Below are positions 6,209 through 54,002 of a stretch of 59,833 nucleotides of DNA, in pieces; within the stretch, counting starts at the first letter, position 1, and the number at the start of each line of letters is the position of its first letter. The stretch lies in the IMG/VR virus record IMGVR_UViG_3300020166_000002, positions 1 through 59,833 of that record; one strand, given 5' to 3'. The notes under the pieces are model-generated. The model did not search any database. It saw only the letters and a list, made by a program, of their open reading frames with translations, and was not told the DNA's origin. This DNA comes from a virus. The position numbers and the translations under genes are program-made.

Positions 6209-6370
6209 ATGCCCTTTAAAAGTGAAGCACAAAGGAGGTTTATGTACAAGAACCATCCTGAGATAGCAAAGAAGTGGGAGCAGGAAGAGAAGTGGGATAA
6301 GGCAACGAAGAGTCTACCCGAGCGTCTTGCTCCCAAAGGATATTGGAAGAGAAGAGATAGGAAAAGATAG
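6209..6370 (+). CDS. Small phage protein, 53 aa
   Basis: Reads M-P-F-K-S-E-A-Q-R-R-F-M-Y and continues with K-N-H-P-E-I-A-K-K-W, ending in a basic tail. Short proteins opening with this 'K-S-E-A-Q-R-R-F' pattern are common in tailed phages, but their function is not known to me. It begins 11 bases after the giant gene and is probably the last gene of the late transcript. Its TAG stop forms the first bases of a 20-base hairpin (6368-6387) shared with the convergent early block. Confidence 0.7.
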   Translation: MPFKSEAQRRFMYKNHPEIAKKWEQEEKWDKATKSLPERLAPKGYWKRRDRKR

Positions 6371-6387
6371 TGTCTTCAAGGACACTA
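6368..6387. terminator. Hairpin at convergent gene ends; wobble variant of the 16-bp palindrome
   Basis: The 20 bases TAGTGTCTTCAAGGACACTA form a stem closed by a UCAA-type loop with one G-U pair. They sit between the plus-strand stop at 6370 and the minus-strand stop at 6385, so the hairpin can serve both transcripts. On the minus strand it is followed by a short T-rich stretch. The same 20 bases recur in inverted orientation at 20505-20524. Confidence 0.7.
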
Positions 6388-6786
6388 CTTCTTTACCTTA
6401 GATGTGAGTTCTATACCTGAGGCTAACGTTAGGTATCCTATTTTCTTTTCGATAAATGTATTGTCTGAGAAGTCTGTATGCTTTGGCAACAGTTTGTTCT
6501 GCCAAGTTATTCTGATGTTGGCAATATAGAAAGCCCACACACCGTTAGGAGTAGAGTTCACGTACACAGGTATTGTTCCGTGTTCTTTACTCCTAAGCAT
6601 TAAAGCATCGTATTTTTTCTTTTCGATTATTAAATCAGAATAGTGTGTGCGTCTGCACTTGAGTTCTATATCCAAGTTATACTCCTTAGAGAAGCAGTCA
6701 TAACGAGAGGTTCTTTTCTCTGATTCTTTTAGGTCTTTAATGAAATTTTTTTTAATCCAATTATATAATTCATTTTCAGTAATCAT
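6385..6786 (-). CDS. PD-(D/E)XK-like nuclease, putative
   Basis: A 133-residue protein. The segment Y-N-L-D-I-E-L-K-C-R-R-T-H-Y (about residues 36-49) has the D-x-E-x-K spacing of a PD-(D/E)XK nuclease core, followed by a Lys-rich helix. Holliday-junction resolvases and small phage endonucleases share this arrangement. It is the last gene of the minus-strand block and overlaps the next upstream gene by 11 bases. The family assignment is from motif reading only. Confidence 0.55.
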   Translation of the reverse strand: MITENELYNWIKKNFIKDLKESEKRTSRYDCFSKEYNLDIELKCRRTHYSDLIIEKKKYDALMLRSKEHGTIPVYVNSTPNGVWAFYIANIRITWQNKLLPKHTDFSDNTFIEKKIGYLTLASGIELTSKVKK

Positions 6787-6967
6787 CCTCGGTACTTTCT
6801 TTTATGTCCCTGAGTGTTGACATAATTTGAATTATTTCTTTATTAAGAGCGTCAAAGTCTCGGTCTATTAAGTTTTCATATATTGAATTTAGAGAGTCGT
6901 GTAGTCCGTCCATCAGTTGGTTGATGTAAGCAAGTCGCTCAGTGTCGTATGCGGACGGTTTCGGCAT
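6776..6967 (-). CDS. Hypothetical protein, 63 aa
   Basis: An acidic, probably all-helical protein with no recognised motif. Its end overlaps the start of the putative nuclease at 6385-6786, and only three bases separate it from the gene upstream. It is therefore almost certainly co-transcribed with them. Confidence 0.55.
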   Translation of the reverse strand: MPKPSAYDTERLAYINQLMDGLHDSLNSIYENLIDRDFDALNKEIIQIMSTLRDIKESTEDDY

Positions 6968-6970
6968 TGG

Positions 6971-7258
6971 CTATTCTTTTTTATCTATGGTTGCAAGAAA
7001 TGCATTGCCCATAGGTGGGTCTATTTTTTTTATTAATGTATAGATTCTTTTAGAGTTTCTTTTAACCTGCTCTCTTTCTTTGTTGGTGGAGTCCTTGCCG
7101 AGATTACAATACATAAAGCAATCAATCTTCAGCAGTTCATCGGTCTTCTGCTTGGTAGTCCAAGTTTTGAATTCCGCAATCTTATCTATGTCGTTGATGT
7201 TATAGCCCATTGTACATTCGATTAATTGCCCATTTAACTTCTTCTTCAGTTCCGACAT
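6971..7258 (-). CDS. Hypothetical protein, 95 aa
   Basis: Lysine-rich with two cysteines close together (C-F-M-Y-C near residue 50). No family recognised. Its first 59 bases overlap the end of the DnaA-domain gene at 7200-7754 in another frame, in keeping with the tight packing of this block. Confidence 0.5.
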   Translation of the reverse strand: MSELKKKLNGQLIECTMGYNINDIDKIAEFKTWTTKQKTDELLKIDCFMYCNLGKDSTNKEREQVKRNSKRIYTLIKKIDPPMGNAFLATIDKKE

Positions 7259-7754
7259 TGGTTCTTTGTTCTACTATCTTATAGATTTCACCAAGTCTTT
7301 GTCTGTTAGAGATGACGGATTTTAATTGTCCTTCAATTTCTATAATTTTCAAAGATAGCGATTTGTTTTCTTTACGCAAAAGAATTAGTTCTTTTTTTAG
7401 TTCATCTTCTGACAAATATAATTGGTCAGTTATATCTCCATCGAATGAGTTCTTGATTTCAGTATAAGACCTGCGTAGTTCAGGGTCAGACATCAGGTAG
7501 TTGTCAAAGTTTTTTACGTAATGTATTATAGTTGCGTGATGTTTTACCATAGCCCTGCCAATACTACTATAACCCCAACCTCCCTTATGTAGGATGTGAG
7601 CGTATATCATACGGGCGTTTACTATGTGTCTGCGTCTCGACTTTGCGGTTTTTACGTCAACACCTAACACTACTCTGATTATATCACGAAGGTGTTGTGT
7701 TGGATTCAATACTGTTTCGTCCATTTCTATATTGTTTGATTGTATTTGATTCAT
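7200..7754 (-). CDS. DnaA domain IV-like DNA-binding protein, 184 aa
   Basis: Residues about 20-105 resemble the C-terminal DNA-binding domain of DnaA: a basic helix R-R-R-H-I-V-N-A-R-M-I-Y-A, then G-W-G-Y-S-S-I-G-R and K-H-H-A-T-I-I-H-Y. The last matches the DnaA signature normally written D-H-T-T-V-L-H. The AAA+ ATPase domain is absent. The C-terminal third is a predicted coiled coil, which could make it dimeric. I infer a role in binding DnaA-box-like sites on phage or host DNA. A second start, M-D-E-T-V at 7724, would reduce the 71-base overlap with the upstream gene. Confidence 0.7.
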   Translation of the reverse strand: MNQIQSNNIEMDETVLNPTQHLRDIIRVVLGVDVKTAKSRRRHIVNARMIYAHILHKGGWGYSSIGRAMVKHHATIIHYVKNFDNYLMSDPELRRSYTEIKNSFDGDITDQLYLSEDELKKELILLRKENKSLSLKIIEIEGQLKSVISNRQRLGEIYKIVEQRTNVGTEEEVKWAINRMYNGL

Positions 7755-8284: not shown

Positions 8285-9742
8285 TTACAAAGTTAGCAAA
8301 TCCTTTTTAAAGTGATTCAGAGTATAGTCTTTCTTGTCTGATACCGCTTTATATATTTCTTTTTCTATGCCCCCTTTAGCAAACACCCAATAAACATCTG
8401 ACTCCAATCTTTCCTTGGTTGTCATTCGGTCTCTGCTCTGCCAATAACTTGTAGCACTGAAGTCTATGTTGTAATACACAAGAGCATCTGCTTTTCGTAA
8501 GGATATACCCTCACGTCCTGATACAATTTGTAAGGCTATAGACTTACTTGTGTCTTCAAAGACACTAAGTTCTGTACATAATTGGTCTCCATATACCTGC
8601 TTCAGTGCGTTATACTCTTCCTTGAATTTGTAGAAGATTCCAATCTTAGCATCGCCAAAGTTGTCGTGGATATATCTTGCTTTCGACAAGTCAATAATGG
8701 TTGAGTTGCCTGACTCAAACTTGATAGTTCCTGAATACAATTGGTGAAGTTTCATCATTAGTTTAACGGGAGTATCAGCCAATATCGTTTCTTCCTTTCC
8801 TTCAACGACCAAGTTCTTTTTTAATTGAGCCGCAATCTTATATGTAATTGGCTCAAGTTCTACCTCAAGTATATGTTCCCTTGTTTCTACTTTAAACCCT
8901 GCCTCCTTCTGTGTGTAGTTGATGGTGTATGGTTTCATTGCATCAAGTATCGTTGGAAGACCATTCGTATAATCGTTTATGTATAGAGAATTGATTTTTC
9001 TTTGCGTAACATTAACGAAGTCTTTAGAAAACTTATAAAAGTTTACATATTGATTGAATGGATTTGTACGTATACCGTAAACCTGATGATACATCTGAGA
9101 GTAAGACTCGGGAGTTGGTGTACCTGATAAAAGAATTACCATTGGATTGTGCTTCTTTATAATTGCACTGACTTGCTTCGCTCTGTTGTTTGGTTTAGGG
9201 AATGCACCCATACCGTGTGCCTCATCGCAAATTAAAACATCAAGACTTTCTATCTCAACCTTGTGCAAACTTTCATAGTTGACTACTGTTAGTTCGTAGT
9301 TAGGGTTCAGCATAGCATAGTCGGACTCTATGCTACTTATGGCTTTCTTCTTTGTCAAGAACAAAACTTTTTTTGCATCGAGTTCTCTACAGATACCGAG
9401 ACTTGTAAGGGTCTTTCCTGTACGCACCTCCATTGCTAAGTATACGAAGTTCTTCTTCTTCAGCACATCAGTGCCTTTCTCTATAATTTCTTTTTGATAA
9501 TCTCTAAATTCTATTGTCGGATTTTCCATTTGATATTTATAATAATCAACGCTTCGATTGATTCGGTCTATTGTTTCCTTTGGAGTATTGTGCTTATACT
9601 CCTCTACTATTTTTACACCCTTTCCTCTACCGACTTTAATTTCCTTCTTTGCGTTAACTACTGATGCCAATATCATACACTGCTTGTGCATCATCTTGTT
9701 ACTGTACCCCGGGATTCTCGGTAGTATATCTGTGTCTGTCAT
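8285..9742 (-). CDS. SNF2/DEAH-type superfamily 2 helicase
   Basis: A 485-residue protein with ordered SF2 motifs: R-D-Y-Q near 80 (Q motif), Walker A E-V-R-T-G-K-T at about 105-111, D-E-A-H at 173-176, S-G-T-P-T-P at 206-211, and a motif VI region Q-S-R-D-R near 438. This organisation fits small SNF2-like helicases of phage replication modules that remodel forks or displace protein. Residues about 393-397, V-F-E-D-T, are encoded by one of the 16-bp palindromes (8550-8565), in a loop before the motif V region. It follows the upstream gene with an ATGA overlap. Confidence 0.85.
   Translation of the reverse strand: MTDTDILPRIPGYSNKMMHKQCMILASVVNAKKEIKVGRGKGVKIVEEYKHNTPKETIDRINRSVDYYKYQMENPTIEFRDYQKEIIEKGTDVLKKKNFVYLAMEVRTGKTLTSLGICRELDAKKVLFLTKKKAISSIESDYAMLNPNYELTVVNYESLHKVEIESLDVLICDEAHGMGAFPKPNNRAKQVSAIIKKHNPMVILLSGTPTPESYSQMYHQVYGIRTNPFNQYVNFYKFSKDFVNVTQRKINSLYINDYTNGLPTILDAMKPYTINYTQKEAGFKVETREHILEVELEPITYKIAAQLKKNLVVEGKEETILADTPVKLMMKLHQLYSGTIKFESGNSTIIDLSKARYIHDNFGDAKIGIFYKFKEEYNALKQVYGDQLCTELSVFEDTSKSIALQIVSGREGISLRKADALVYYNIDFSATSYWQSRDRMTTKERLESDVYWVFAKGGIEKEIYKAVSDKKDYTLNHFKKDLLTL
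8550..8565. repeat. 16-bp palindrome, copy inside helicase gene
   Basis: Exact copy. Read in the gene's direction it is GTGTCTTTGAAGACAC and encodes V-F-E-D-T. The frame that would contain TGA is not used. Confidence 0.95.
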
Positions 9743-10439: not shown

Positions 10440-10450
10440 TCTATTTGATG

Positions 10451-13479: not shown

Positions 13480-13764
13480 TTAAAACGGCAGGTCATCATC
13501 CTCTTTCGCTACCGCAGGAGCAGGAGCAGGTTTAGGTGACGCTGACTTTCCTTGTGGCTTGGCTTCCCAAGTATCGAGTTCACAATAGTAGTTCCCGTTC
13601 TTGGCTTGTTTGATATCCAAGTTAACCCAACCATTCTTGGCGTGTTGTGAAAGGAAAGCAATTGCTTCATCCACTTTAATTGATTGCCGACCCACTACGA
13701 AGTCGGGGGCATTCTCTCTGCGCTTAAAAGAGAATCCGTCTGCGAAAATTTTTTCGTCTGTCAT
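13480..13764 (-). CDS. ssb: Single-stranded DNA-binding protein-like
   Basis: A 94-residue protein with a beta-rich body, an Ala/Pro-rich linker (K-P-A-P-A-P-A-V-A) and the terminal tail E-D-D-D-L-P-F. An acidic tail ending D-x-P-F is the protein-interaction tip of bacterial SSBs. The body is shorter than a standard OB-fold SSB, so it may be a divergent or minimal form. It is the last gene of a recombination set with the RecE-like nuclease and annealing protein, joined by an ATGA overlap to the gene upstream. Confidence 0.75.
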   Translation of the reverse strand: MTDEKIFADGFSFKRRENAPDFVVGRQSIKVDEAIAFLSQHAKNGWVNLDIKQAKNGNYYCELDTWEAKPQGKSASPKPAPAPAVAKEDDDLPF

Positions 13765-13931
13765 TTTGTTTTGATTTTAATTTTACGCTCCAATAGTTTA
13801 GTTGTTGAGAGGATAACATTTTGTTTTTCCTCGGGGCTTTGGCATCTGATTGGAACACGCAGACACATCCACCCATTTTCTTTTTGTGTCTTTGAAGACA
13901 CTGCTTCTGTTAATCTTTTAAAGAAGTTCAT
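13761..13931 (-). CDS. Small protein of the recombination module, 56 aa
   Basis: Begins M-N-F-F-K-R-L-T-E-A and ends in a Lys-rich tail. It fills the gap between the nuclease and SSB genes exactly. It overlaps the nuclease end by 14 bases, and its TGA overlaps the SSB ATG. The residues V-S-S-K-T are encoded by the 16-bp palindrome. No family recognised; the precise overlaps are the evidence that it is expressed. Confidence 0.6.
   Translation of the reverse strand: MNFFKRLTEAVSSKTQKENGWMCLRVPIRCQSPEEKQNVILSTTKLLERKIKIKTK
13886..13901. repeat. 16-bp palindrome, copy in the small recombination-module gene
   Basis: Exact copy. In the minus-strand gene it reads GTGTCTTCAAAGACAC and encodes V-S-S-K-T at about residues 11-15. 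Confidence 0.95.
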
Positions 13932-15302: not shown

Positions 15303-15720
15303 TTTGATTTGATTTTAATTTATTTAATTTAATTGTCATCTCTGTGTACTTCTCAAGGATATTTTGCCTTGTGGATTGGTAATAATCGAGTTGCTTCTGA
15401 GATGGGTTCGGCTTCTCGTTGACGTGCTTCTTAATCTGTCGCTCAATTCTGTCGAGTTTTGCACGATAGTTAGACAAAGATATAACATATATTCCATATC
15501 TCCAACCACCATCGTGAAATAAATTTATATGTTCCTGATTTAGAGAGTGATAAAAATCTCCCGACTTCGCAGTATTCAACAGTTGTATTTGAGAGGTCTC
15601 GTTGTCTTTGACAATCTTTATCCCGTACAAAAGATAGGACTCGTATCCATTCCCGTGAAGAGGAGATGAAGATGAGTCGTCAGATGCCTGAATAAAGATG
15701 TCGTTTAAACTGTAACGCAC
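15271..15720 (-). CDS. Hypothetical protein, 149 aa
   Basis: A beta-rich N-terminal half (Y-E-S-Y-L-L-Y-G-I-K-I) and a charged helical C-terminal half (R-A-K-L-D-R-I-E-R-Q-I-K-K), probably a coiled coil. It overlaps the annealing-protein gene by 32 bases and the DnaA-like gene by 16. No family recognised. Confidence 0.55.
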   Translation of the reverse strand: MRYSLNDIFIQASDDSSSSPLHGNGYESYLLYGIKIVKDNETSQIQLLNTAKSGDFYHSLNQEHINLFHDGGWRYGIYVISLSNYRAKLDRIERQIKKHVNEKPNPSQKQLDYYQSTRQNILEKYTEMTIKLNKLKSNQNGEHKTTNDI

Positions 15721-16007
15721 GACTTCATTTGTTTAATAGTTTTCCTATAGTCTCCGTCTACCTGCAAACGTTCTTTCACCTGATTGATTCCGTAGATAAT
15801 AGATGAATGGTTAATGAGATACCCCTTGCTAAACATATACTCTTGGATATAAACGATTCGCATTGGTCGTTCACTGCACATATAGTATAGAAGGTAACGT
15901 GCGTCTACAATGTCTCTTCGTTTACTCTTAGTGAAAAGTAGTTCTTCGCTGATACCGAACAGGTCGGCACATTGAGTTGCGTATTCATTGAAAATATTTA
16001 GTTTCAT
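15705..16007 (-). CDS. Second DnaA domain IV-like protein, 100 aa
   Basis: Almost the whole protein matches the DnaA DNA-binding domain: R-R-D-I-V-D-A-R-Y-L-L-Y-Y, a middle helix, and I-N-H-S-S-I-I-Y-G-I-N at the position of the DnaA D-H-T-T-V signature. It lacks the ATPase domain and the coiled coil of the gene at 7200-7754, so the two are probably diverged paralogues. It may bind DnaA boxes, block host initiation or recruit host replication proteins. Confidence 0.65.
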   Translation of the reverse strand: MKLNIFNEYATQCADLFGISEELLFTKSKRRDIVDARYLLYYMCSERPMRIVYIQEYMFSKGYLINHSSIIYGINQVKERLQVDGDYRKTIKQMKSCVTV

Positions 16008-16222
16008 TTGATTTGATTTTTTGCTTCGTAGTCTTTGAATATTTCACCAAAGTACCCGAATAGTTCTTTTAAAATTTCTACTGAAGAGTTGTCTGCTACC
16101 CGTGTCTTTGAAGACACTCGCTCTCTTGATTGAAATTCCCTGAAGTGATACTCATCATCAAGGAATTCGTCTTGGATTTCTTGCTCACGAATTTCGGTGA
16201 ACATCTGTTTTGATTTTGACAT
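16004..16222 (-). CDS. Hypothetical charged protein, 72 aa
   Basis: A highly charged, probably helical protein overlapping the DnaA-like gene by 4 bases. The V-S-S-K-T in its middle is encoded by the 16-bp palindrome. The leader contains TGATTTGATTTT like several neighbours. No function recognised. Confidence 0.55.
   Translation of the reverse strand: MSKSKQMFTEIREQEIQDEFLDDEYHFREFQSRERVSSKTRVADNSSVEILKELFGYFGEIFKDYEAKNQIK
16102..16117. repeat. 16-bp palindrome, copy in 72-aa gene
   Basis: Exact copy. On the gene strand it reads GTGTCTTCAAAGACAC, encoding V-S-S-K-T. Confidence 0.95.
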
Positions 16223-18107: not shown

Positions 18108-19187
18108 TTAGTTAAACAATGCTACTTCGTTATCTGTGAACCAACCGCCACACGCACTGCAGTGGTAGTGGTTAAACCCATCGTACTCCAAGTCAGAGAA
18201 ACAATCAATGCAGGATGGCTTCTCTACATAAACCTCTTCCCTCTCATTAAAGACCTCATCGAAATAAGAAAGTTGTGTGCATTCTTTTTGTGTCTTTGAA
18301 GACACTGTCTTGGACTTGGATAGTGTAAAAGATTTTGGAATGGGCTTCTGAAGAAATGTCTTGTGCATTACCTCCCCACTTCTGATTTGTTTTGGGTTAA
18401 AGTATATCCACGCAGTAACTTCTTTACCCTGTATGACAACCTGAATCTGCTCACGCTTGTACCATCTCGGATGACCCTCAAGGATATCTAACTTCGCTAA
18501 GGTAGAGTCACTTACTTTGAATACGTCTACCGCCACGTTGTGTCCCACTCCCTTTTGATTTACCAAGAAAGGTAAACCGTTAACGATTAACGGATACTTA
18601 TCCTTAGTCTTGCCTGAGCCAACAAAGTCAGAGTTGTAAAGGTGACCGTAGTAGTTGCTATAACCTTTCTTCAATGTTCCGTACACTGCAACCACGTTGT
18701 CAAGTAGGACGTTGTCTTTTGAGAACCACACGCCATCTCTGTTGGTGTACAGGTGACGATTGTATATCTGATACGATTTGGTCTTGGTGTTGACGCTAAC
18801 AAACCTGCACTCATACTTCTCAAGTTCAGTTTTCCATTGGTCTCTTGGCATATCACCTAACATCTCAGCAAGTACCTTGCTATCTGTCTTGTTGTCGTTG
18901 CCCAACCCTTTGATGGTTCCGTTCATCATCAGCAGTTCGTCTGTGTTCTTACCGCACACAAATGGATGTGTGTTCGCTCGGTTAATCTTACCGACAGTTG
19001 CGTATCTGAAATGCGCAATGTATGGTCGGTCAGTTAATAGTTTCTTGTACTCTTTAGAGTCGTGATAGGTTACCTCAAAGGTGTCCAACCAAACAATGCC
19101 CAACCCATCAGGATTGACAGTTGATGATTTCTTTAGGACTTCTTGCGATACCTTGCGACCTCTTTGTTTAATGATGATTACACACAT
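18108..19187 (-). CDS. Fusion of class II glutamine amidotransferase, GGCT-like domain and zinc ribbon
   Basis: A 359-residue protein with three parts. (1) Residues 1-150: catalytic Cys2 after Met, N-P-D-G-L-G, H-F-R-Y-A-T and M-N-G-T-I, the landmarks of a class II (Ntn) glutaminase domain. (2) About 165-275: V-Y-G-T-L-K-K-G-Y and L-D-I-L-E-G-H-P-R-W-Y, typical of gamma-glutamylcyclotransferase/AIG2 folds. (3) About 325-350: C-I-D-C ... C-S-A-C, a zinc ribbon. The linker before the ribbon carries palindrome-encoded V-S-S-K-T. Glutaminase and GGCT domains are known neighbours of amidoligases, and an amidoligase-like gene lies about 1.3 kb away (20536-21450). I infer a joint amide-bond or gamma-glutamyl modification role. 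Confidence 0.8.
   Translation of the reverse strand: MCVIIIKQRGRKVSQEVLKKSSTVNPDGLGIVWLDTFEVTYHDSKEYKKLLTDRPYIAHFRYATVGKINRANTHPFVCGKNTDELLMMNGTIKGLGNDNKTDSKVLAEMLGDMPRDQWKTELEKYECRFVSVNTKTKSYQIYNRHLYTNRDGVWFSKDNVLLDNVVAVYGTLKKGYSNYYGHLYNSDFVGSGKTKDKYPLIVNGLPFLVNQKGVGHNVAVDVFKVSDSTLAKLDILEGHPRWYKREQIQVVIQGKEVTAWIYFNPKQIRSGEVMHKTFLQKPIPKSFTLSKSKTVSSKTQKECTQLSYFDEVFNEREEVYVEKPSCIDCFSDLEYDGFNHYHCSACGGWFTDNEVALFN
18290..18305. repeat. 16-bp palindrome, copy in glutaminase-GGCT gene
   Basis: Exact copy in the linker between the GGCT-like domain and the zinc ribbon; encodes V-S-S-K-T. Confidence 0.95.
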
Positions 19188-19229: not shown

Positions 19230-19742
19230 TTATTTTAGACTACCAAATTTATTTTTTACTCGTTCCCAATACACTTCAGTTGATTGCTTCTTGTGACCTC
19301 GTCCTCCGCCATTCCATTTACGGGCAACCACCTCAAAGAATTCTTCCTGAGTCAATCCCTCGCAACACTCAACCTGCTCCGCCATAATCTCAAACATCTC
19401 GATAGACTTTTCTCTGTTCCATCTGTCGTCCAAGGTGTATCGGAATGGGGCGTTCCACTTTTTTAGTTTGCGGTTAACCTCACGCACCATAATAGGACGT
19501 ATCTGTAGGCAACCTGCCGCTTTCTCTTTTTCGTTGTATGCAGAATCATTCCCGCTACTCTCTACTTGGATTACTGCTTCAACAAATAATTCCCAATCGG
19601 TTTGTGTCTTTGAAGACACAATCTCGGGTGAGATTGTATCTTCTATAACACATTGTTCTGAATCTGTAGTTGGCTTGTCGTATGATGCAAACCCAAGCAC
19701 GGATACCGTGACTACTCCTGCTAAAATTTTAATCTGTCTCAT
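19230..19742 (-). CDS. Exported lytic transglycosylase/lysozyme-like protein
   Basis: A 170-residue protein. Residues 1-20 form a basic start and hydrophobic stretch (I-L-A-G-V-V-T-V-S-V-L-G-F-A), a signal peptide or membrane anchor. The catalytic-type motif V-I-Q-V-E-S-S-G-N follows near 55-63, then G-C-L-Q-I-R-P and W-N-G-G-G, as in SLT-fold lytic transglycosylases (Glu catalytic). The linker between anchor and domain holds palindrome-encoded V-S-S-K-T. It could be a second peptidoglycan enzyme acting from the periplasm, apart from the late amidase. Confidence 0.7.
   Translation of the reverse strand: MRQIKILAGVVTVSVLGFASYDKPTTDSEQCVIEDTISPEIVSSKTQTDWELFVEAVIQVESSGNDSAYNEKEKAAGCLQIRPIMVREVNRKLKKWNAPFRYTLDDRWNREKSIEMFEIMAEQVECCEGLTQEEFFEVVARKWNGGGRGHKKQSTEVYWERVKNKFGSLK
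19604..19619. repeat. 16-bp palindrome, copy in transglycosylase-like gene
   Basis: Exact copy encoding V-S-S-K-T in the linker after the signal-like segment. Confidence 0.95.
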
Positions 19743-20427: not shown

Positions 20428-20504
20428 TTTGATTTTATTTTATTAGTTTCCTGTTTCGTCCTTTGGGACTCATCAGCACAGGCACTCACCTGTGGACAGG
20501 AGGA

Positions 20505-20524
20505 TAGTGTCCTTGAAGACACTA
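20505..20524. repeat. Wobble variant of the 16-bp palindrome in an intergenic hairpin
   Basis: TAGTGTCCTTGAAGACACTA, the exact reverse complement of the hairpin at 6368-6387. Flanking GG and CC extend the stem to about 10 bp. On the plus strand it is followed by TTTTTTT, although no plus-strand gene precedes it. It lies 12 bases past the end of the amidoligase-like gene on the minus strand. Confidence 0.85.
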
Positions 20525-20535: not shown

Positions 20536-21450
20536 TTAATATCTCCTTGGCGCAGGAGTCTCGGTGAATCCTAACCACCCTTTGATATCCTCGGTCACCT
20601 TGCCTGTCTTGATATACTTTTGGAATGATACTGCCAAGGTCATTATCTCGTTCACCTTGTCTTGGTTTCTGTCGTACATCGCCATCAGGATTGGTTCTGC
20701 CTTCTTCAAGAAAGTCTTGAAATTTCCGTTTGGATTGTTTACGCTGAAATCAACCAATTCATACATCATCTCGTATCTGCGCATCATCTGTTTTACTGAT
20801 TGGAATCGGGCAGGAAGACGAAATTCAATCACGCTACCTTTGTTTAAGCATACGTGATACTTGTTTGAATTGCCTACAGGTAATCCTGCCCAATCTTCTC
20901 TATTCTCCTGCATACGGATATTGAAACGGCAGTAAGGATTTTGCAATCTGTGACGATACATTGCGTACAGGATGCCTGAATTTTTGCGTACTAAATTCAT
21001 CAATTCACTACCATCCATCCCTTCTACGGCAAGAGAAATGTGTCCGCCACATCGCTTGTCTGATGGGCTATTGGCATCCTCAATAATTCTCTTTGCTTTG
21101 TGCATCATATCGTAGACCTTGTTGCGCCATACTGATGCAGGTAGCAAAGGTAGGATGTTGGTCACTGCTTCGTATCCGCAAGAACCATCACGCTCAAATC
21201 CGCAAAGCAATTCGTATTCTCTTACTGCTCCACGAGATAATTGGTTTTTCTCAATCTCCATTCCGATTGTGAAACGTGAATTGAAATCCGAACCTACCTG
21301 CACCAAATTGCGCTTATCAGAATTTTTCAATTGGGCAATGTCCGAAGATTTTGCACCTTTCTGCATCTCACGAAATTCAGGTTTTCTGTGGTAGTGTTGA
21401 ACTACTGCTCTGTCTGAGCGATTTTCGATTTTGTAGATGATACCTTCCAT
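20536..21450 (-). CDS. Amidoligase-like protein (GS-type COOH-NH2 ligase family)
   Basis: A 304-residue protein. Near residue 60 it has F-T-I-G-M-E-I-E-K-N, then R-D-G-S-C-G-Y-E-A-V-T-N-I-L-P-L (about 88-103), C-G-G-H-I-S-L (about 135) and R-F-N-I-R-M. The G-x-E-x-E start, the D-G-S ... E-A-V/T ... P-L stretch and the G-G-H block are landmarks of the Amidoligase_2 family, glutamine-synthetase-like ligases that join amines to carboxylates with ATP. The glutaminase/GGCT fusion nearby is a known genomic partner type. The substrate is unknown: a peptide, a protein or a nucleotide are all possible. Confidence 0.7.
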   Translation of the reverse strand: MEGIIYKIENRSDRAVVQHYHRKPEFREMQKGAKSSDIAQLKNSDKRNLVQVGSDFNSRFTIGMEIEKNQLSRGAVREYELLCGFERDGSCGYEAVTNILPLLPASVWRNKVYDMMHKAKRIIEDANSPSDKRCGGHISLAVEGMDGSELMNLVRKNSGILYAMYRHRLQNPYCRFNIRMQENREDWAGLPVGNSNKYHVCLNKGSVIEFRLPARFQSVKQMMRRYEMMYELVDFSVNNPNGNFKTFLKKAEPILMAMYDRNQDKVNEIMTLAVSFQKYIKTGKVTEDIKGWLGFTETPAPRRY

Positions 21451-21480: not shown

Positions 21481-21529
21481 TAGTGGGCAGTAAGGATTCG
21501 AACCTTATGTGTCACCGACTGACCTACCC
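21481..21529 (-). ncRNA. tRNA-like element lacking one arm
   Basis: On the minus strand GGGTAG pairs with CTGCCC (one G-U pair) as a six-bp acceptor-like stem. TAAGG-TTCGAAT-CCTTA is a textbook T arm, and GTCA-GTCGG-TGAC is a single short hairpin where D and anticodon arms should be. The element is only about 45-49 bases. It could be a decayed tRNA, a tRNA mimic, or the remnant of a tRNA interrupted near the palindrome at 21532. No anticodon can be assigned. Confidence 0.5.
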
Positions 21530-21531: not shown

Positions 21532-21547
21532 GTGTCTTTGAAGACAC
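21532..21547. repeat. 16-bp palindrome, intergenic copy
   Basis: Exact copy between the minus-strand gene ending at 21551 and the tRNA-like element. On the plus strand it is followed by TTTTT. Confidence 0.95.
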
Positions 21548-21550: not shown

Positions 21551-22195
21551 TTACATTCCCATTGATGATTGAAGAAACGCAATTGCTTGAGCAATTTCTG
21601 AAGCATCGTTTCGGGTAATCAATTCGCCATTGGCATTGATGCGGACTGCAATGTTTCGTCCTTCGGGATTCTTCATTGACATTGTGAAGATTGTCTCAAC
21701 ACGTTCCTGTACTTCTGCTGACTCAATTGCTTCCTCAGAAATCTCCTCTTCTCCTGTCTCCTCGTTGATGATTGTTTCAACGTCATTGAAATCCTGTGCG
21801 AATTTCAACAGACCTGCTAAACTTCTGTCAACGTCTTTGCCTTGGGCATCTGCTTCGTCACATTTGGTATTGAATGCATCGACAATTTGCTCTGACAATT
21901 TCCCTGCTTTAAGTACTTTGTAGAAGAAAGACTTCTGCCATCCGAAGACCTTTTGACCGAATTCCTCTTTGCTCCACGATAATCCTGCATCCTGCATTTT
22001 GAATTTACCTTCCTCAGAAGTGAACCATTGTTCTGCTTTTACGACCAATTTTGCCATATTCAAAGTATGACCGAATTTGCTCTTGTGAGCATTGGTAATT
22101 TGTCTTTGAATGCGTTTGATGTCATTCAAGTTTAATGCATTCTTGATTTCTGATTGTGAAAGGAATGCCGTTTCGATTGATAAAAGATTGCTCAT
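21551..22195 (-). CDS. Conserved phage early protein with helix-turn-helix-like region, 214 aa
   Basis: First gene of the minus-strand block, directly downstream of the hub promoter. Residues about 70-97, S-K-E-E-F-G-Q-K-V-F-G-W then K-S-F-F-Y-K-V-L-K-A, read as a helix-turn-helix. An acidic segment (E-T-G-E-E-E-I-S-E-E) and a C-terminal beta/alpha tail follow. I know similar proteins only as uncharacterised phage early proteins. Being first and DNA-binding-like, it is a candidate early regulator or initiator, and a candidate binder of the dispersed palindrome. Confidence 0.55.
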   Translation of the reverse strand: MSNLLSIETAFLSQSEIKNALNLNDIKRIQRQITNAHKSKFGHTLNMAKLVVKAEQWFTSEEGKFKMQDAGLSWSKEEFGQKVFGWQKSFFYKVLKAGKLSEQIVDAFNTKCDEADAQGKDVDRSLAGLLKFAQDFNDVETIINEETGEEEISEEAIESAEVQERVETIFTMSMKNPEGRNIAVRINANGELITRNDASEIAQAIAFLQSSMGM

Positions 22196-22276: not shown

Positions 22277-22284
22277 CAAATATA
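22277..22284 (-). promoter_or_regulatory. Bacteroidota-type promoter driving the early block
   Basis: TATATTTG on the minus strand with TTG 19 bases upstream, 81 bases before the ATG at 22195. It is the best candidate for the main leftward early promoter. Confidence 0.7.
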
Positions 22285-22405: not shown

Positions 22406-22429
22406 TTTTGTTTTGATTGTGGACAGGAA

Positions 22430-22612
22430 CGCACACAGGAAGACAGGAACGCACACAGGAACGAATGCTTTGCCGCATTCATTCTCTGTTGCTCTTTGAT
22501 TGCGTACGGGAACGGGAACGGGGACAGGCGGAACGGGAACGGGAACAGGGGAACAGGGGACACAGGACGCAGGACGGATGCAGGCAGGACGCAGGACGCA
22601 GGCAGGCAGGTA
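22430..22612 (+). repeat. G-rich short tandem repeats with G-quadruplex potential
   Basis: The plus strand carries two ACACAGGAA-type repeats, several GGGAAC units (22507-22560), then GCAGGAC and GCAGGCAG units (22567-22612). GGG-AAC-GGG-AACA-GGGG-AACA-GGGG (about 22535-22559) meets the usual four-run quadruplex pattern. Composition is far from the AT-rich genes around it. Confidence 0.8.
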
Positions 22613-25141: not shown

Positions 25142-25382
25142 TATAATCCTTAACAACTATCCTGAAGAAGGATTCCTCAAAGCAGATGGCTTTGATGATG
25201 CTATCATTGGTATTAATAGCAAAGGGAACAAACTTGTTTACTCAGTTAGCAAGTGTCTCAATATCCTTATGAAGGAGGGGATGGATTTTGAAGATGCATA
25301 TGAACACTTCTACTACAATATAGAAGCAGCATATGTTGGAGAGAATACGCCTATATGGGTAAACGACATATTTGAACTTTAA
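25122..25382 (+). CDS. Conserved phage protein between GroEL and GroES, 86 aa
   Basis: Contains D-G-F-D-D-A-I-I-G near residue 25 and Y-Y-N-I-E-A-A-Y-V-G near 70. This 'D-G-F-D-x-A-I-I-G' family is widespread in tailed phages with no known function. Its start overlaps the groEL end by 20 bases, so the two are coupled. Confidence 0.75.
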   Translation: MRTKILDIILNNYPEEGFLKADGFDDAIIGINSKGNKLVYSVSKCLNILMKEGMDFEDAYEHFYYNIEAAYVGENTPIWVNDIFEL

Positions 25383-25391
25383 TAAAAAATT

Positions 25392-36874: not shown

Positions 36875-37438
36875 ATGAAATCCCCATTTGATTTTATCGT
36901 AAGACCATTAGACGGAAAACGCTATAATAATATAAAAAAAATTGGCAGTATTGATTTGATTGTTAGCACTTCTGAAGAAGATGTTAAGGCTTCAAATAGA
37001 TTTGCTGAAGTTGTTGAAACGCCTATTGGATACAACGGTCCAATTAAAATTGGAGACATATTACTTGTTCACCACAATGTGTTCAAGTTTTACAATGATA
37101 TGAAGGGTCGTCAGAGAAGTGGCAGAAGTTACTTTAAAGACGACCTTTTCTTTGTTGATGCCGAACAGTTCTTTATGCACTATGATGGCACACAATGGAA
37201 TGCTTATGATAGGTTTTGTTTTATAAAACCCGTCCCTGTTGTGGAATCATACATATATAAACCTTTTAGTGAAGAGCCACTCATTGGAGAGATGAAATAT
37301 CCTAACGAGTATTTAAAAAGTAAAGGTGTTAAAGAAGGAGATTTAGTTACCTTTCTTCCTGAAACAGAATACGAGTTTAACATTGATGGTGAGAAACTAT
37401 ATAGGATGTATGACCATCACATAAGTATGGTGTTGTGA
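36875..37438 (+). CDS. Conserved phage protein, 187 aa
   Basis: Starts M-K-S-P-F-D-F-I-V-R-P. The block I-K-I-G-D-I-L-L-V-H-H-N-V-F-K-F-Y with G-R-S-Y-F-K-D-D is a recurring beta-barrel-like motif in phages, usually near terminase genes. The G-D-x-x-L-V-H-H-N turn recalls Cpn10 barrels, but that link is weak. An upstream ATG at 36845 lies inside the previous gene. Function unknown. Confidence 0.65.
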   Translation: MKSPFDFIVRPLDGKRYNNIKKIGSIDLIVSTSEEDVKASNRFAEVVETPIGYNGPIKIGDILLVHHNVFKFYNDMKGRQRSGRSYFKDDLFFVDAEQFFMHYDGTQWNAYDRFCFIKPVPVVESYIYKPFSEEPLIGEMKYPNEYLKSKGVKEGDLVTFLPETEYEFNIDGEKLYRMYDHHISMVL

Positions 37439-37801: not shown

Positions 37802-40031
37802 TACCCTGTATAGAGTTTTACATAATTATGTACAACCAACCGTCCTCGCTAATAAAAACAAAGCGAAGAGTTGGACCTATGGCTATGATTTTAAAAATGA
37901 CCTTATCGTAATATCTAAAGATGGAACCGTTGGTGAAGTTATTGAGATTGAAGGATTAAAAATAGGACTACCAATTGCTCCAAAGGAGTGTCTTCAAAGA
38001 CACAAAAAAAAAGAGGAGCAGTATTGGGAACGTGTTGAAATCCCAAACGAGTTAAATAAAATTCAAACAATATTTCAATGGAACGAAAAGCCTTCTGAAT
38101 TCAAGGACAGATGGGTGGACTATATTGAGGAAGAGTTTGACAGGAGGGAGAATGGGGTATGGTTTATGAATAATGGAACCCCAACATATATAACAGGGTC
38201 TCATTATATGTACCTTCAATGGACAAGCATTGATGTTGGATACCCGGATTATCGTGAAGCCAATAGAATCCTGTATATACATTGGGAGGCTTGTAAGGCT
38301 GACAGTAGAAGTTTTGGACAGATATATCTAAAGATTAGACGTTCAGGATTTTCATTTATGTCTTCATCAGAGTGTGTAAACACAGGAACTCTTGCGAAAG
38401 ATGCAAGGGTTGGCATCTTGTCAAAGACAGGTGCTGATGCTAAGAAGATGTTTACGGATAAGGTTGTTCCAATTAATAGCCGATTACCATTTTTCTTTAA
38501 ACCGATTATGGATGGTATGGACAAACCTAAAACTGAATTAGCGTTTAGGATTCCTGCGGCAAAAATTACAAAAAAGAATATGTACAATGCAGACAACAAT
38601 GAGTTGTATGGATTGGATACCACTATAGATTGGAAGAATACAGACGACAACAGTTATGATGGTGAGAAGTTGTTGTTATTGGTTCACGATGAAAGTGGAA
38701 AGTGGATTAAACCAAATAACATTCAAAACAATTGGCGAGTAACAAAAACTTGTTTGCGTTTAGGTAGTAAGATTATAGGTAAGTGTATGATGGGTTCCAC
38801 CTCTAATGCGTTAGCAAAAGGTGGTGACAACTTTAAACAACTTTATGAGGACTCTAATGCGTTAAAGAGAAACTCAAATGGTCAAACCAAAAGCGGTATG
38901 TATTCTCTTTTCATTCCTATGGAATGGAATATGGAAGGATTTATTGACAGGTATGGTATGCCCGTGATGCATAAGCCCACCAATAACCCCATAATTGGAG
39001 TTGATGGTGGGAATATCCATCAAGGTGCAGTTGACTATTGGGAGAACGAGGTTGAGTCTTTAAAGAACGATGCCGATGCACTTAATGAATTCTACCGTCA
39101 GTTTCCTCGCACAACGTCTCACGCTTTCCGTGACGAAAGCAAGATGTCATTGTTCAATCTGACTAAGATATATCAGCAGATAGACTACAATGATTCATTA
39201 ATAAAAGAACACCATATGACTCGTGGGTCTTTTTCTTGGAAGGATGGTATAAAAGATTCAAAGGTTATTTTTAGTCCAAACAATAACGGAAGGTTTTCGA
39301 TTGGTTGGAATCCAAAAGCACATCTTCAGAATAATATAATTATAAGGAATGGTATTAAGTACCCGGGGAATGAGCACATAGGTGCATTCGGATGTGACAG
39401 TTATGATATTTCGGGTGTTGTTGGCGGTGGGGGTTCTAATGGTGCTCTTCACGGATTAACTACATATCATATGGAAGAAGCACCTGTCAATACTTTTTTC
39501 TTAGAATATATTGCTCGTCCTCAAACCGCAGAGATATTTTACGAAGAGGTTCTTATGGCTTGTGTATTTTATGGTATGCCAATTCTAATCGAGAACAACA
39601 AACCTCGTTTGCTTTACCATTTTAAAAATAGAGGCTACAGAGGGTTCTGTATGAATAGACCTGATAAAGCATATACAAACCTGTCAAAAACAGAAAAAGA
39701 ACTCGGAGGTATTCCGAATACGAGTGAAGATATTAAACAGGCACACGCTGCTGCAATAGAATCTTATATTGAAAAATATGTTGGCTTAGACTTAGATGGA
39801 AGTTATAGAGATATGGGGGATATGGGAGATATGATTTTTACCCGAACCTTGGAAGATTGGGCAAGGTTTGATATATCGAACAGAACCAAGCACGATGCCT
39901 CTATTAGTTCAGGGTTGGCTATTATGGCAACTCAGAAGGCTATGTATTTAAGCGAGAAAAAACAATCAAAAATAAAGATTAACTTTGCAAGGTATAGTAA
40001 TAAAGGAACAATAAGCGAAATTATTAGATGA
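37779..40031 (+). CDS. terL: Terminase large subunit
   Basis: A 750-residue packaging motor. The ATPase has a degenerate Walker A, R-R-S-G-F-S near 184, and Walker B L-L-L-V-H-D-E near 300. A nuclease half follows with G-C-D-S-Y-D near 538, I-E-N-N near 603 and K-H-D-A-S near 707 as candidate acidic sites. The N-terminal linker residues C-L-Q-R-H come from the palindrome at 37988. It hydrolyses ATP to drive DNA through the portal encoded next. Confidence 0.9.
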   Translation: MQKEGQDSTLYRVLHNYVQPTVLANKNKAKSWTYGYDFKNDLIVISKDGTVGEVIEIEGLKIGLPIAPKECLQRHKKKEEQYWERVEIPNELNKIQTIFQWNEKPSEFKDRWVDYIEEEFDRRENGVWFMNNGTPTYITGSHYMYLQWTSIDVGYPDYREANRILYIHWEACKADSRSFGQIYLKIRRSGFSFMSSSECVNTGTLAKDARVGILSKTGADAKKMFTDKVVPINSRLPFFFKPIMDGMDKPKTELAFRIPAAKITKKNMYNADNNELYGLDTTIDWKNTDDNSYDGEKLLLLVHDESGKWIKPNNIQNNWRVTKTCLRLGSKIIGKCMMGSTSNALAKGGDNFKQLYEDSNALKRNSNGQTKSGMYSLFIPMEWNMEGFIDRYGMPVMHKPTNNPIIGVDGGNIHQGAVDYWENEVESLKNDADALNEFYRQFPRTTSHAFRDESKMSLFNLTKIYQQIDYNDSLIKEHHMTRGSFSWKDGIKDSKVIFSPNNNGRFSIGWNPKAHLQNNIIIRNGIKYPGNEHIGAFGCDSYDISGVVGGGGSNGALHGLTTYHMEEAPVNTFFLEYIARPQTAEIFYEEVLMACVFYGMPILIENNKPRLLYHFKNRGYRGFCMNRPDKAYTNLSKTEKELGGIPNTSEDIKQAHAAAIESYIEKYVGLDLDGSYRDMGDMGDMIFTRTLEDWARFDISNRTKHDASISSGLAIMATQKAMYLSEKKQSKIKINFARYSNKGTISEIIR
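37988..38003. repeat. 16-bp palindrome, copy in the large terminase gene
   Basis: Exact copy, plus strand GTGTCTTCAAAGACAC, read as C-L-Q-R-H at about residues 71-75. It is the only in-gene copy using this frame. Confidence 0.95.
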
Positions 40032-43647: not shown

Positions 43648-45081
43648 ATGGCAGTTCAATCCGTTCCGGGATATCAGTTGCAGCCGAGTGCACAACAGGT
43701 CCCTTTAAAATCAAACTACATTACCAACTTTGATTTCTTGAATCAGTATCTTCCTGATACCTATGAGAAAGAATTCGAGCGTTACGGTAATCGTACAGTT
43801 GCATCTTTCCTACGTATGGTAGGAGCAGAGATGCCTTCTAATTCTGACCTTATCAAATGGGCAGAGCAAGGTCGTCTTCATACTAAGTATGTTGATTGTA
43901 CCACTACAGTTCTTGCAGGTTCTGCAGTAGCAACTTTCACTGTTAATGATGTCTTGATTCCTGCATTTGTAAATGCTGCTTCAGGTTCTATCGCTATCCG
44001 TGTAGGGCAGACGCTTATGATTACCGCTAATGCAGGTGGTGCAAACCACAAAGCAATCGTTACTGCAGTTGATACTGCTCTTAAAACGTTTGACGTAGCG
44101 TTCTACGATGCTGCAGGTATCACTAATGCTTCTGCTGCTGACAAGTGGACAGTATTTATCTATGGTTCTGAATTCAAAAAAGGAACTAATGGAATGATTG
44201 GTTCTTTGGAGTCTGACGATGAAATCTTCGAGAACTCTCCTATCATCATCAAAGACAAGTACGCAGTATCAGGTTCTGATATGGCTCAAATCGGATGGGT
44301 AGAAGTAACCACTGAGAATGGTGCTTCAGGTTACCTTTGGTATTTGAAGTCAGAGCACGAGACTCGTCTTCGTTTTGATGACTACTTGGAGACTTCTATG
44401 ATTGAAGCAGTTCCTGCTGAAACAGGTTCAGGTGCAGCATCTGCAGCCGGAGACGTTGGTAACAAAGGTTCACAAGGTATCTTCTACGTTGTTAACTTGC
44501 GTGGTAACGTATGGGGCGGTGGTTATCCTGTAACTCTTGCCGACTTTGATACTATCGTATCTCGTTTGGACAAGCAAGGTTCTATCGAAGAGAACGTAAT
44601 CTTTGTTGACAGAAACTTTAGTTTCTCTATTGACGATATGTTGGCTGCTCAAAACTCTTACGGTGCGGGTGGTTCTTCTTATGGTCTTTTTGAAAACGAT
44701 AAGGATATGGCTCTTAACTTGGGCTTCACCGGATTCCGTAGAGGTTATGATTTCTACAAGTCTGATTGGAAATACTTGAACGACCCAACTATGCGTGGAG
44801 GTCTTCCTTCTGTTGCAGGTTCAGGTAAAGTAAGCGGTTTGTTGGTTCCTGCGGGTTCTACTACTGTATATGACCAAATCCTTGGTAAGAACGCTAAGCG
44901 TCCTTTCCTACACGTGCGTTACCGTGCTTCAGAAACTGAAGACAGACGTTACAAAACTTGGATTACAGGTTCTGCAGGTGGTGCTGAAACTTCTGACCTT
45001 GACGCAATGGAGGTTAACTTCTTGTCTGAAAGAGCAGTATGTACTTTAGGTGCTAACAACTTCTTCTTGTTCCAAAACTAA
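43648..45081 (+). CDS. Major capsid protein
   Basis: A 477-residue protein starting M-A-V-Q-S-V-P-G-Y-Q-L-Q, with balanced composition, many Gly/Ala/Tyr and G-Y-L-W-Y-L-K-S-E-H-E-T-R. It follows the scaffold, has an A-rich leader typical of strong Bacteroidota translation, and is followed by a strong terminator. The family resembles capsid proteins of Bacteroidota short-tailed phages; the HK97-type fold is inferred, not seen. Confidence 0.85.
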   Translation: MAVQSVPGYQLQPSAQQVPLKSNYITNFDFLNQYLPDTYEKEFERYGNRTVASFLRMVGAEMPSNSDLIKWAEQGRLHTKYVDCTTTVLAGSAVATFTVNDVLIPAFVNAASGSIAIRVGQTLMITANAGGANHKAIVTAVDTALKTFDVAFYDAAGITNASAADKWTVFIYGSEFKKGTNGMIGSLESDDEIFENSPIIIKDKYAVSGSDMAQIGWVEVTTENGASGYLWYLKSEHETRLRFDDYLETSMIEAVPAETGSGAASAAGDVGNKGSQGIFYVVNLRGNVWGGGYPVTLADFDTIVSRLDKQGSIEENVIFVDRNFSFSIDDMLAAQNSYGAGGSSYGLFENDKDMALNLGFTGFRRGYDFYKSDWKYLNDPTMRGGLPSVAGSGKVSGLLVPAGSTTVYDQILGKNAKRPFLHVRYRASETEDRRYKTWITGSAGGAETSDLDAMEVNFLSERAVCTLGANNFFLFQN

Positions 45082-45096: not shown

Positions 45097-45131
45097 GGGG
45101 GGGTGTCTTCAAAGACACTCTCCCTTTTTTT
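45097..45131 (+). terminator. Terminator after the capsid gene, built on the palindrome (45103-45118)
   Basis: The exact palindrome is extended by GGGGGG on the left and TCTCCC on the right to a 12-bp stem with some G-U pairs, followed by seven Ts. It lies 16 bases after the capsid stop. This is the clearest case of the palindrome acting as a terminator. Confidence 0.9.
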
Positions 45132-52766: not shown

Positions 52767-52787
52767 CTATAAATAAAATATAATAAA

Positions 52788-53978
52788 ATGCCACAAACAT
52801 ATTACATAGACGGGTCAACACTACTCAACTCTACGGCAGTTTACACTGACGCAGGGTTGACTACTTGTGCCCCCGATGGTTTTTATTCTGATGGAATAAA
52901 CTCAAGAGAATTGGTAGGGTGTATATTGCTTCCTGCTCAGGCTTGCGGTAGTTGTGCCACCCCTTGCGGGCAGCCTATTGCAGCAAATGGAGGTCAAGGA
53001 ATCTATAAGGTCGACTTAGACGCAGGAAACTCTATTGGTGCTATGATTGTAAAATACAATCCTGCAAGCGTTCCCGATGGAATAAGAGTACTTTATAACG
53101 GTGGCGTTTACAATCAACTAAGTTCTCCTGTTGATGGATACCACGCAAGTACAGACCCTAATGGTTACACATATATTGGAGCGACTACTGCTGATTGTGG
53201 AATATCAGGAACTACATATCCTGCACTTGTAGAATATGTTTATAATGGTGCTTCATTTGTTGCTTCAGGAAATACGGTATCTGTTTTTGTCGCTGCGGGT
53301 GATGTCTCTTTGGGGGCAGCACCGGGGTGGTGTGTTATGGTTATACCTAAAATAAGTGCGACTCCAAGTTTAATTCAAGTTGAAGCGGTTGGTCCTTGTA
53401 GTGGTACTGCTTGGAATTTAGATATCGCTTGTCCTGTAGCACTAACAGGTTACAGTTCAACAACCCGACACCCTGCTTGCACCGAAGCGTGTGGACATCC
53501 CTTAACTGAAACATATTATAATGCTCCTGTTACAGGAACTGCAGGCTCACCTGCTTTGTATGATTGGGTATTTAGTGATGCTAACGGTCAGTTTGTTTTA
53601 ACTGATGGTTTTTATGGATTTACAGGAGGTAAGTGTATGACTGTTCAAAACGGAATTATAGTGGCAATAAGCACTTGCAGCAGCCCCCCTCCACCTACTG
53701 AATATATATACTTGTCTACGGTAACTGTTACTTGTGATGATTTTTGTGGCGGACAAAACTACAATATTGTTACTCAAAAAACTACAGTACAAAACCATAG
53801 TTTTATAAATATCACTCTTGGAGATGATATATTTGGGTCTGTCATTAGTGATGGATACTATGCATATGCTGCTTCCATAACGGATACTTCAACGGGAGTA
53901 TATAGAATTATGGAGGTCGTAAACAATGAGGTTGTAAGTATATTGGCGTGTTCGAGTGGGCAATGTGTGCCGTTGTAA
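52788..53978 (+). CDS. Cysteine-rich repeat virion protein, putative adhesin, 396 aa
   Basis: Starts M-P-Q-T-Y-Y-I-D-G-S-T-L. A unit of about 60-100 residues recurs, each ending D-G-F-Y or D-G-Y-Y then a strand with Cys (G-F-Y-S-D-G, G-F-Y-G-F-T-G-G-K-C, G-Y-Y-A-Y-A-A). Paired cysteines are abundant, unusual for a cytoplasmically assembled protein. Placed after the tail gene, it may decorate the tail or bind a receptor. It is related in part to the protein at 35395. Confidence 0.6.
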   Translation: MPQTYYIDGSTLLNSTAVYTDAGLTTCAPDGFYSDGINSRELVGCILLPAQACGSCATPCGQPIAANGGQGIYKVDLDAGNSIGAMIVKYNPASVPDGIRVLYNGGVYNQLSSPVDGYHASTDPNGYTYIGATTADCGISGTTYPALVEYVYNGASFVASGNTVSVFVAAGDVSLGAAPGWCVMVIPKISATPSLIQVEAVGPCSGTAWNLDIACPVALTGYSSTTRHPACTEACGHPLTETYYNAPVTGTAGSPALYDWVFSDANGQFVLTDGFYGFTGGKCMTVQNGIIVAISTCSSPPPPTEYIYLSTVTVTCDDFCGGQNYNIVTQKTTVQNHSFINITLGDDIFGSVISDGYYAYAASITDTSTGVYRIMEVVNNEVVSILACSSGQCVPL

Positions 53979-53986
53979 AAAAAAGC

Positions 53987-54002
53987 GTGTCTTTGAAGAC
54001 AC
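53987..54002. repeat. 16-bp palindrome, intergenic copy
   Basis: Exact copy eight bases after the stop at 53978 and 15 bases before the next ATG. The stem is not extended and no T-run follows, so it is not a clear terminator. Confidence 0.95.

Follow-up and report, generated by a model that had tools for sequence, protein, structure and literature searches.

In Cluster A mycobacteriophages, repressors of the L5 type recognize stoperators, numerous sites dispersed over promoter regions and the short gaps between genes, whose orientation is tied to transcription and whose motif diverges together with the repressor (excerpts of PMC9283540 and PMC6550527). The repeated element of phage SPbeta (SPBRE) was spotted in silico long before its reader and is bound by one phage master repressor, MrpR (excerpt of PMC10516654). 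Here we examine a 16-bp palindrome, GTGTCTTYRAAGACAC, dispersed over the IMG/VR virus record IMGVR_UViG_3300020166_000002 (59,833 nucleotides, the whole of which is called the window below), together with W31, an early protein of that phage and its proposed reader. With a probability that we put at roughly 0.6, W31 uses the palindrome as its DNA operator in a stoperator-like control of transcription.

The sequence-only reading of this DNA knew of no described phage system with this form. That statement was too strong, as stoperators and SPBRE are described dispersed phage operators (excerpts of PMC9283540, PMC6550527 and PMC10516654). Like the stoperators, the palindrome occurs in many dispersed copies of what would be the site of a single phage protein, and site and proposed reader diverge together. 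Unlike the asymmetric 13-mers thought to be bound by monomers in the excerpts cited, it is perfect, with arms of 7+7; it also involves a different protein, conserved copies within coding sequences (CDS) and hammerhead ribozyme partners. The likeness to SPBRE lies in a repeated phage element for which a single phage-encoded reader is proposed. The two differ in that MrpR folds like a tyrosine recombinase, recognizes a 15-bp motif and has its sites at promoters, whereas W31 has a predicted helix-turn-helix and its sites are also found in CDS. A further comparison is provided by plasmid RK2, which carries 12 OB sites. These palindromic sites are bound by KorB, which silences at a distance (excerpt of PMC11790492). 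KorB is a helix-turn-helix protein with a weak fold match to W31; however, it acts as a CTPase clamp, whereas the W31 phages have no ParB_N match and W31 itself has no Pfam match, and the half-site differs.

The palindrome in the window and in related phages

The window holds 12 exact copies of the palindrome and two with one mismatch, at 6370 and 20507, all at the positions first reported, as well as two further matches at three mismatches. These 16 matches with up to three mismatches compare with a mean of 1.30 and a maximum of 5 in 100 dinucleotide shuffles. Arms of seven nucleotides enclose a two-nucleotide centre, CA or TG in the window, an architecture that the sequence-only reading had described correctly. 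Our own calls of open reading frames (ORFs) also returned its split of seven copies in genes and seven between them; two of the former lie in ORFs of 56 and 72 residues, and the copy at 22390 was counted as intergenic though it falls within a doubtful 60-residue ORF. The copies, given without strand, are:

6370-6385: palindrome with one mismatch, between the end of the giant virion gene and the end of the early operon (convergent)
8550-8565: palindrome in the helicase CDS, encoding VFEDT, position kept in relatives
13886-13901: palindrome in small early ORF 13761-13931 (minus strand)
16102-16117: palindrome in small early ORF 16004-16222 (minus strand)
18290-18305: palindrome in the GGCT-domain gene 18108-19187 (minus strand)
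19604-19619: palindrome in the SLT-domain gene 19230-19742 (minus strand)
20507-20522: palindrome with one mismatch (U.G in sense), within a hairpin of 11 bp on the 5' side of a hammerhead ribozyme
21532-21547: palindrome 3 nucleotides past the W31 stop codon
22390-22405: palindrome upstream of the W31 promoter region
24195-24210: palindrome in the GroEL CDS
31889-31904: palindrome in an extended hairpin upstream of the tail-fibre gene 31950-35393
37988-38003: palindrome in the terminase large subunit CDS, encoding CLQRH, position kept in relatives
45103-45118: palindrome in a hairpin resembling a terminator, following the gene 43648-45081 for a virion structural protein (putative major capsid)
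53987-54002: palindrome between virion genes 52788-53978 and 54018-54845

IMG/VR was scanned with the pattern GTGTCTTNNAAGACAC and 41 whole records among the matches listed were then searched. The pattern occurs 1-18 times per record and its reversed control is absent from 41/41. Among these records, 12 of the 13 virus records longer than 50 kb have 6-15 copies and the remaining one, G039, has one; the 41-kb record G005 has 18. Among the matches listed for genome contigs, all but one contig have single copies, in varied organisms, which we read as chance; a contig from a Cytophagales metagenome-assembled genome has eight. The same palindrome thus recurs in many other IMG/VR records and is therefore not an artefact of the assembly of this contig, a doubt raised at the outset. 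In 22 sequences (the window, 20 records and MW202828), all 200 exact sites have a pyrimidine-purine (YR) centre (CA 89, TG 80, TA 22, CG 9). Other centres are found at 1 of 143 sites in primase loci, at 3 of 327 in amidoligase loci and at all four sites of G055. This last genome, with canonical arms, the centres AT, AC, GC and CT, and a diverged W31, constitutes a natural test of the role of the centre. MW202828 has no canonical site and carries instead 14 perfect copies of GTGTCGTTAACGACAC, all within 43.7-55.2 kb, in which the altered base is altered in both arms. In 50 kb of the cultured relative MT497017.1 (Elemovirus), neither a repeated palindrome nor a significant W31 match was found, and the one literature library searched yielded no description of the palindrome or of W31.

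The sequence-only reading had proposed to ask whether the positions of the 16-mer are conserved in related phages, and they often are, despite divergence. The helicase gene was found in the window and in 17 relatives with canonical sites, and it contains a site in 18/18 of these sequences, MW202828 being without one. Sites also recur at the terminase gene start, in the gap that follows the capsid gene, within the giant virion gene and GroEL, and in the gaps around W31, the neighbouring amidoligase-like gene W30 and the GGCT gene. When 44 genomes are aligned, 17 of them have the canonical 16-mer at precisely the same helicase position, and in G008 and G040 the site is displaced within the gene; G059 and G061 have there their own genome-wide palindromes, GTCCGTTTGAACGGAC and GTCTCTTCGAAGAGAC, and G072, G067, G068, G069 and G076 have near versions. 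All 12 informative records negative for W31 lack a palindrome at this spot and read, for example, DEFNNS. At the terminase position, the canonical 16-mer is found in 16/43, with own versions in G055, G068, G069 and G076. In G059 and G061 (helicase) and in G076 (terminase), the variant at the conserved position alters amino acids; at coding sites, protein sequence gives way to the palindrome (VFEDT, PFERT, LFEET).

A mobile micro-palindrome, also suggested by the sequence-only reading, or a chance repeat devoid of any reader would agree with an exact 16-mer present in many places and in varied copy numbers. We consider its probability practically negligible in view of the shuffle counts, of positions kept across diverged phages while their sequence switches with the cognate protein, and of the strong link to W31.

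W31 as the probable reader

The protein in question is encoded as follows:

21551-22195, minus strand: W31, early helix-turn-helix protein, proposed palindrome reader

W31 and the site co-occur and co-vary, and even within genes the site stays at fixed positions. A W31 profile detects the protein in 18 of the 22 sequences; among the four without it, G041, G011 and G019 appear incomplete in that region and the fourth is G039. Of 83 loci found by profile search, 80 were taken, and all 80 carry the canonical site (361 sites, against 0 for 20 arm-shuffled controls). Because the search pattern included a KS motif and thus favours canonical readers, less biased searches were conducted via the primase (best 80 of 521) and via W30 (best 80 of 126). 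The co-occurrence test was performed on the 38 records of at least 50 kb among the 80 primase loci. W31 is present in 24 of them: 13 have at least five canonical sites and nine repeat another palindrome at least three times, namely G052 (GTGTACA), G059 and G072 (GTCCGTT), G061 (GTCTCTT), G063 (GTCTCCT), G068 (GTGTCG), G071 (GTCTGTT), G075 (TCCGTTA) and G055 (GTGTCTT with odd centres). The arm in MW202828 is GTGTCGT. Two records, G056 (12 canonical sites) and G076 (6 GTGTCG), end where W31 should lie and were left out of the negative count. Among the 12 informative records without W31, G051 has four copies of CGTATTTCAAATACG, collagen-like repeats occur in three and no repeat in the other eight, of which G047 and G064 are without a GroEL match and possibly incomplete. 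The AGGACC/GGTCCT palindromes of the three (G045, G046 and G048), each clustered within ~1.4 kb, look like collagen-type repeat coding and were counted as no palindrome. At least three copies of one palindrome are thus found in 22/24 records with W31 versus 1/12 without it (Fisher p 1.4e-6; 9.7e-6 without G047 and G064; 5.6e-4 if the collagen-like repeats of the three negatives are counted). The repeated palindrome of G051 predicted a W31 relative, and a remote one (E 2.5e-4) was later found just after the first palindrome. A search with the MW202828 homologue returned no further relatives, and tblastn of W31 in phage records matched MW202828 only.

Specificity was addressed with 32 non-redundant W31 homologues to which a palindrome had been assigned, the primase, GroEL, helicase and terminase (22-27 sequences each) serving as controls. 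Residue 93 ranks first of 193 W31 columns for arm base 5, with a z of 13.9; the next W31 column reaches 8.7 and the best of 1,854 columns in the four control proteins 5.4. This residue sits in the predicted recognition helix 88-98. Lysine accompanies C at base 5 in 28/28 canonical rows, aspartate accompanies G in G059, G072, G071 and G075, and arginine accompanies A in G052 and L543. The early suggestion of a binding site for a phage regulator is therefore well supported by a site that co-occurs and co-varies with the 21551 product, a protein that had been named among the candidates, and on these comparisons W31 very probably reads the palindrome.

Reading by another DNA-binding protein, either the winged helix-turn-helix-like W39 (25615-26070, minus strand) or a host protein, is in our opinion very improbable. 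W39 is found in 15 relatives including MW202828, where its homologue is annotated 'repressor', and like W31 it is absent from G039. However, its likely recognition segment, identified by eye, is kept in MW202828, which has a different site, and changed in G008, which has the canonical one, a pattern that disfavours W39 as reader; moreover, no site adjoins it in the window. A host reader would leave unexplained why lineage-specific palindromes are tied to a phage gene.

A helix-turn-helix of the ParB/KorB type had been guessed from the W31 sequence ahead of any structure search. An AlphaFold2 model built from 35 homologues (mean predicted local distance difference test score 89.1) is helical with a C-terminal b-b-a arrangement, and its helices 76-84 and 88-98 form a helix-turn-helix. 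The top three entries in a comparison with PDB structures are KorB on operator DNA (1r71_D, Z 5.0; root-mean-square deviation 4.0 over 101 residues, 21% identity), Spo0J (1vz0, 4.9) and KorB (8qa9, 4.4). W31 had no match in PHROGs, its profile gave 0 matches at E<=10 in a PDB sequence search, and Foldseek gave no match under E 0.8 with either W31 model.

These nearest folds, with Noc at rank 14, and a palindrome spread genome-wide, also at conserved places in CDS, would suit a ParB/Noc-like role in which W31 binding organises phage DNA (compaction, segregation, replication or host-membrane tethering) instead of transcription. We regard such a role as unlikely. The ParB_N CTPase domain (PF02195) has a match in 0/31 records, the control being positive in 11/14 genomes; ParA (PF13614) is over cut-off in 0/31, with sub-threshold matches in 3/31, in open frames of 2258-3515 residues. 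A partition system is disfavoured by these two results. The 14 variant copies of MW202828 are all in its early region, and genome-wide spread is therefore not needed.

Site placement, RNA structures and proposed function

The early genes run leftward from ~22.2 kb to 6.4 kb with W31 first, and GroEL and the late genes run rightward. Among the 80 loci, a site lies 189-424 nucleotides before the W31 start codon in 69 of the 75 testable upstream, and 1-32 nucleotides past the stop codon in 55 of the 78 testable downstream. A box matching TANNTTTG, which we take to be the Bacteroidota -7 box, is found 25-124 nucleotides before the W31 start in 40/75 loci versus 2.5 expected. In the window it corresponds to:

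22277-22284, minus strand: putative W31 promoter box TATATTTG, matching TANNTTTG, with the palindrome ~106 bp upstream of the box

Runs of GTTCCTGT-like repeat units occupy 22410-22560 (minus strand), upstream of the 22390 site, and CCTGT repeats are found in the same place in G012 and G040.

According to the scheme that we propose, W31 would be made early and would bind the sites through its helix-turn-helix, presumably as a dimer, acting like a stoperator protein. At the borders of early units, and within certain early and late genes, it would block or slow transcription, exert feedback on the early operon and help to time expression. Many intergenic copies, embedded in RNA hairpins and often joined to a hammerhead-like ribozyme, may in addition form the 3' ends of processed early mRNAs. 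With sites in many early gaps, where genes end convergently and at the end of the capsid gene, the simplest reading is a boundary and roadblock of the stoperator kind. That transcription control is the main task of W31 binding is an even bet.

At the RNA level, two structures adjoin sites in the window:

20448-20502, minus strand: hammerhead ribozyme type III (Rfam RF00008; score 47.1 bits, E 7e-9, short of the gathering threshold of 48.5 by 1.4 bits), 4 nucleotides 3' of the palindrome at 20507
21485-21529, minus strand: tRNA-like element with acceptor-, D- and T-like stems and no anticodon arm, just 3' of a palindrome (fold z -3.36)

The first has the conserved core and three stems of a type III hammerhead, as predicted from sequence, and folds as a structure neighbouring the 20507 palindrome (z -4.2). 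A hammerhead-core pattern has 67 matches in 18 genomes, of which 29 lie within 120 nucleotides 3' of a site and 26 of these at 24-33 nucleotides, against a mean of 1.4 and a maximum of 7 for random placement. A Rfam gathering-level search of six relative loci returned tRNAs and no hammerhead, and the hammerhead count accordingly rests on the core pattern, with a placement control only. The pattern also matches in 11/12 W31-negative phages; hammerheads therefore do not depend on the palindrome. Hammerheads between phage genes have been proposed to cut long transcripts into gene-length mRNAs (excerpt of PMC3088659). The prophage hammerheads described there are likewise multiple and lie between genes; unlike them, those studied here are often coupled at a fixed spacing to a protein-operator palindrome, a coupling not found in the excerpt of PMC3088659. 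In the slot between W31 and W30, the window, L475 and L539 have instead the tRNA-like element without anticodon arm (by eye); in the window neither ARAGORN nor Rfam at gathering level found it. A similar element, also seen by eye, precedes W31 in MW202828 (L244:43761 onward). The tRNA-like element might be an RNase P cleavage signal.

At 139 sites outside ORFs of at least 100 residues, the stem extends by 2.35 pairs in the sense strand versus 1.17 in the antisense, with 73 versus 28 G.U pairs. Co-directional intergenic sites have a sense centre of CA in 58 cases and TG in 11, orthologous sites being counted repeatedly, and sites in ORFs have CA 62 and TG 39; the centre is the only asymmetric part on which an orientation like that of stoperators could rest. 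These features, together with the spacing of hammerhead cores, could mean that the element acts as RNA and is a DNA palindrome as a by-product only; it would be a hairpin at mRNA ends, a terminator, or a stabiliser of the 3' ends that result from hammerhead or tRNA-like processing. We find this doubtful, more so than a role in DNA organisation. The 93 sites in ORFs of at least 100 residues have no stem extension (0.83 versus 0.94) and the core accepts C.A (7 one-mismatch cores in sense, as against 5 with U.G), which together disfavour RNA as the sole explanation. Moreover, the arm co-varies with a helix-turn-helix residue, and hammerhead cores occur without W31. Sites in general do not take the intrinsic-terminator form of a GC-rich stem followed by a T-run: stem extension and T-rich tail come together in 14 of the 139, that at 45103 among them. 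The sequence-only reading had proposed an RNA processing site; this holds for the many intergenic copies followed by a hammerhead-like ribozyme at fixed spacing, and fails for the long-ORF copies and in the tolerance of C.A. A dual-level boundary element, in which a DNA roadblock for W31 would double as the 3'-end hairpin of mRNAs cut by the adjoining hammerhead or tRNA-like RNA, and titration of W31 by DNA replication would provide the early-to-late switch, is a speculative extension that we hold to be rather improbable as a whole.

Several observations weigh against the palindrome as a W31 operator for transcription control. Concerning co-occurrence, G067 and G069 have W31 and fewer than three perfect palindrome copies, the four sites of G055 have non-YR centres, and no site exists at the helicase spot in the W31-positive G052, G055, G063, G071, G075 and MW202828, which have other palindromes or centres. 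G039 keeps one perfect helicase site and no W31 was found in it, which suggests a relic or an import by recombination. The structural resemblance is weak: next after the top three comes a de novo design at Z 4.3, unrelated rows are tied within 1 and Noc comes at Z 3.5, values of a size that can be chance. When residues 1-140 were modelled alone, no KorB or ParB was among the 50 entries listed, nor was a KorB or ParB model among the 25 listed of the 34 Pfam families matched at E<=1 with 35 members. As to co-variation, G063 breaks the residue-93 rule (R93 with C). Arm base 6 has no clear W31 partner column (R96 in 3/3 GTGTCC rows versus 1/28 canonical), and control columns score up to 17.8 for base 4, so that nothing can be said about it. 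The permutation z is not corrected for phylogeny and the control proteins show a kinship background; the signal rests on 5 non-C sequences of 32, with arms assigned by hand and that of G067 taken from a degenerate site. Of 51 loci picked by hand, 29 have both elements, and in these the likely promoter box is preceded by the site at a distance of 141-217 bp; the site therefore brackets the W31 unit and does not simply cover its promoter. It is also difficult to see why a lytic phage would place a roadblock within its terminase, helicase and GroEL genes. Finally, whereas stoperators belong to temperate phages, a tyrosine integrase (PF00589) was found in 0/31 records, serine integrases not having been searched for; together with the results for ParA and ParB_N, this makes lysogenic silencing and partition less likely, while control during the lytic cycle is untouched by the argument.

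The phage and the significance of the system

The window represents a phage of ~60 kb that has flavobacterial podoviruses as relatives. Among the 87 phage records matched by its terminase are 68 Flavobacterium and 15 Cellulophaga phages; identity is below 60% for 86 of the records and 74.6% for MW202828.1. The primase has a BT4734-like domain. Phage GroEL and GroES genes are located at 23540-25649 (plus strand), and a second GroES-like protein is encoded at 36875-37438 (plus strand), just before the terminase. W30 (20536-21450, minus strand) is amidoligase-like by eye and has no Pfam or PHROGs name. The conserved early gene 18108-19187 (minus strand) fuses a glutamine-amidotransferase-like part to a gamma-glutamyl cyclotransferase, and its product and W30 are possibly a peptide- or cell-wall-modifying pair. 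The products of 7200-7754 and 15705-16007 (both minus strand) show weak matches, below the Pfam cut-off, to the DnaA C-terminal helix-turn-helix and have homologues in 13/21 and 17/21 relatives, respectively.

The analysis provides a candidate function for a family of early proteins without annotation, which occurs in a large group of aquatic phages that probably infect Bacteroidota. If the dual-level element exists, early W31 would stall RNA polymerase at the boundaries of units and within late genes, and replication would multiply the sites and titrate W31 away, creating an early-to-late switch driven by copy number. Phage hammerheads tied at fixed spacing to a protein-operator element make the role of these ribozymes directly testable. 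At least eight lineage-specific palindromes, each with its W31 homologue, amount to a natural experiment in DNA specificity, as do genes in which amino acid changes preserve the site.

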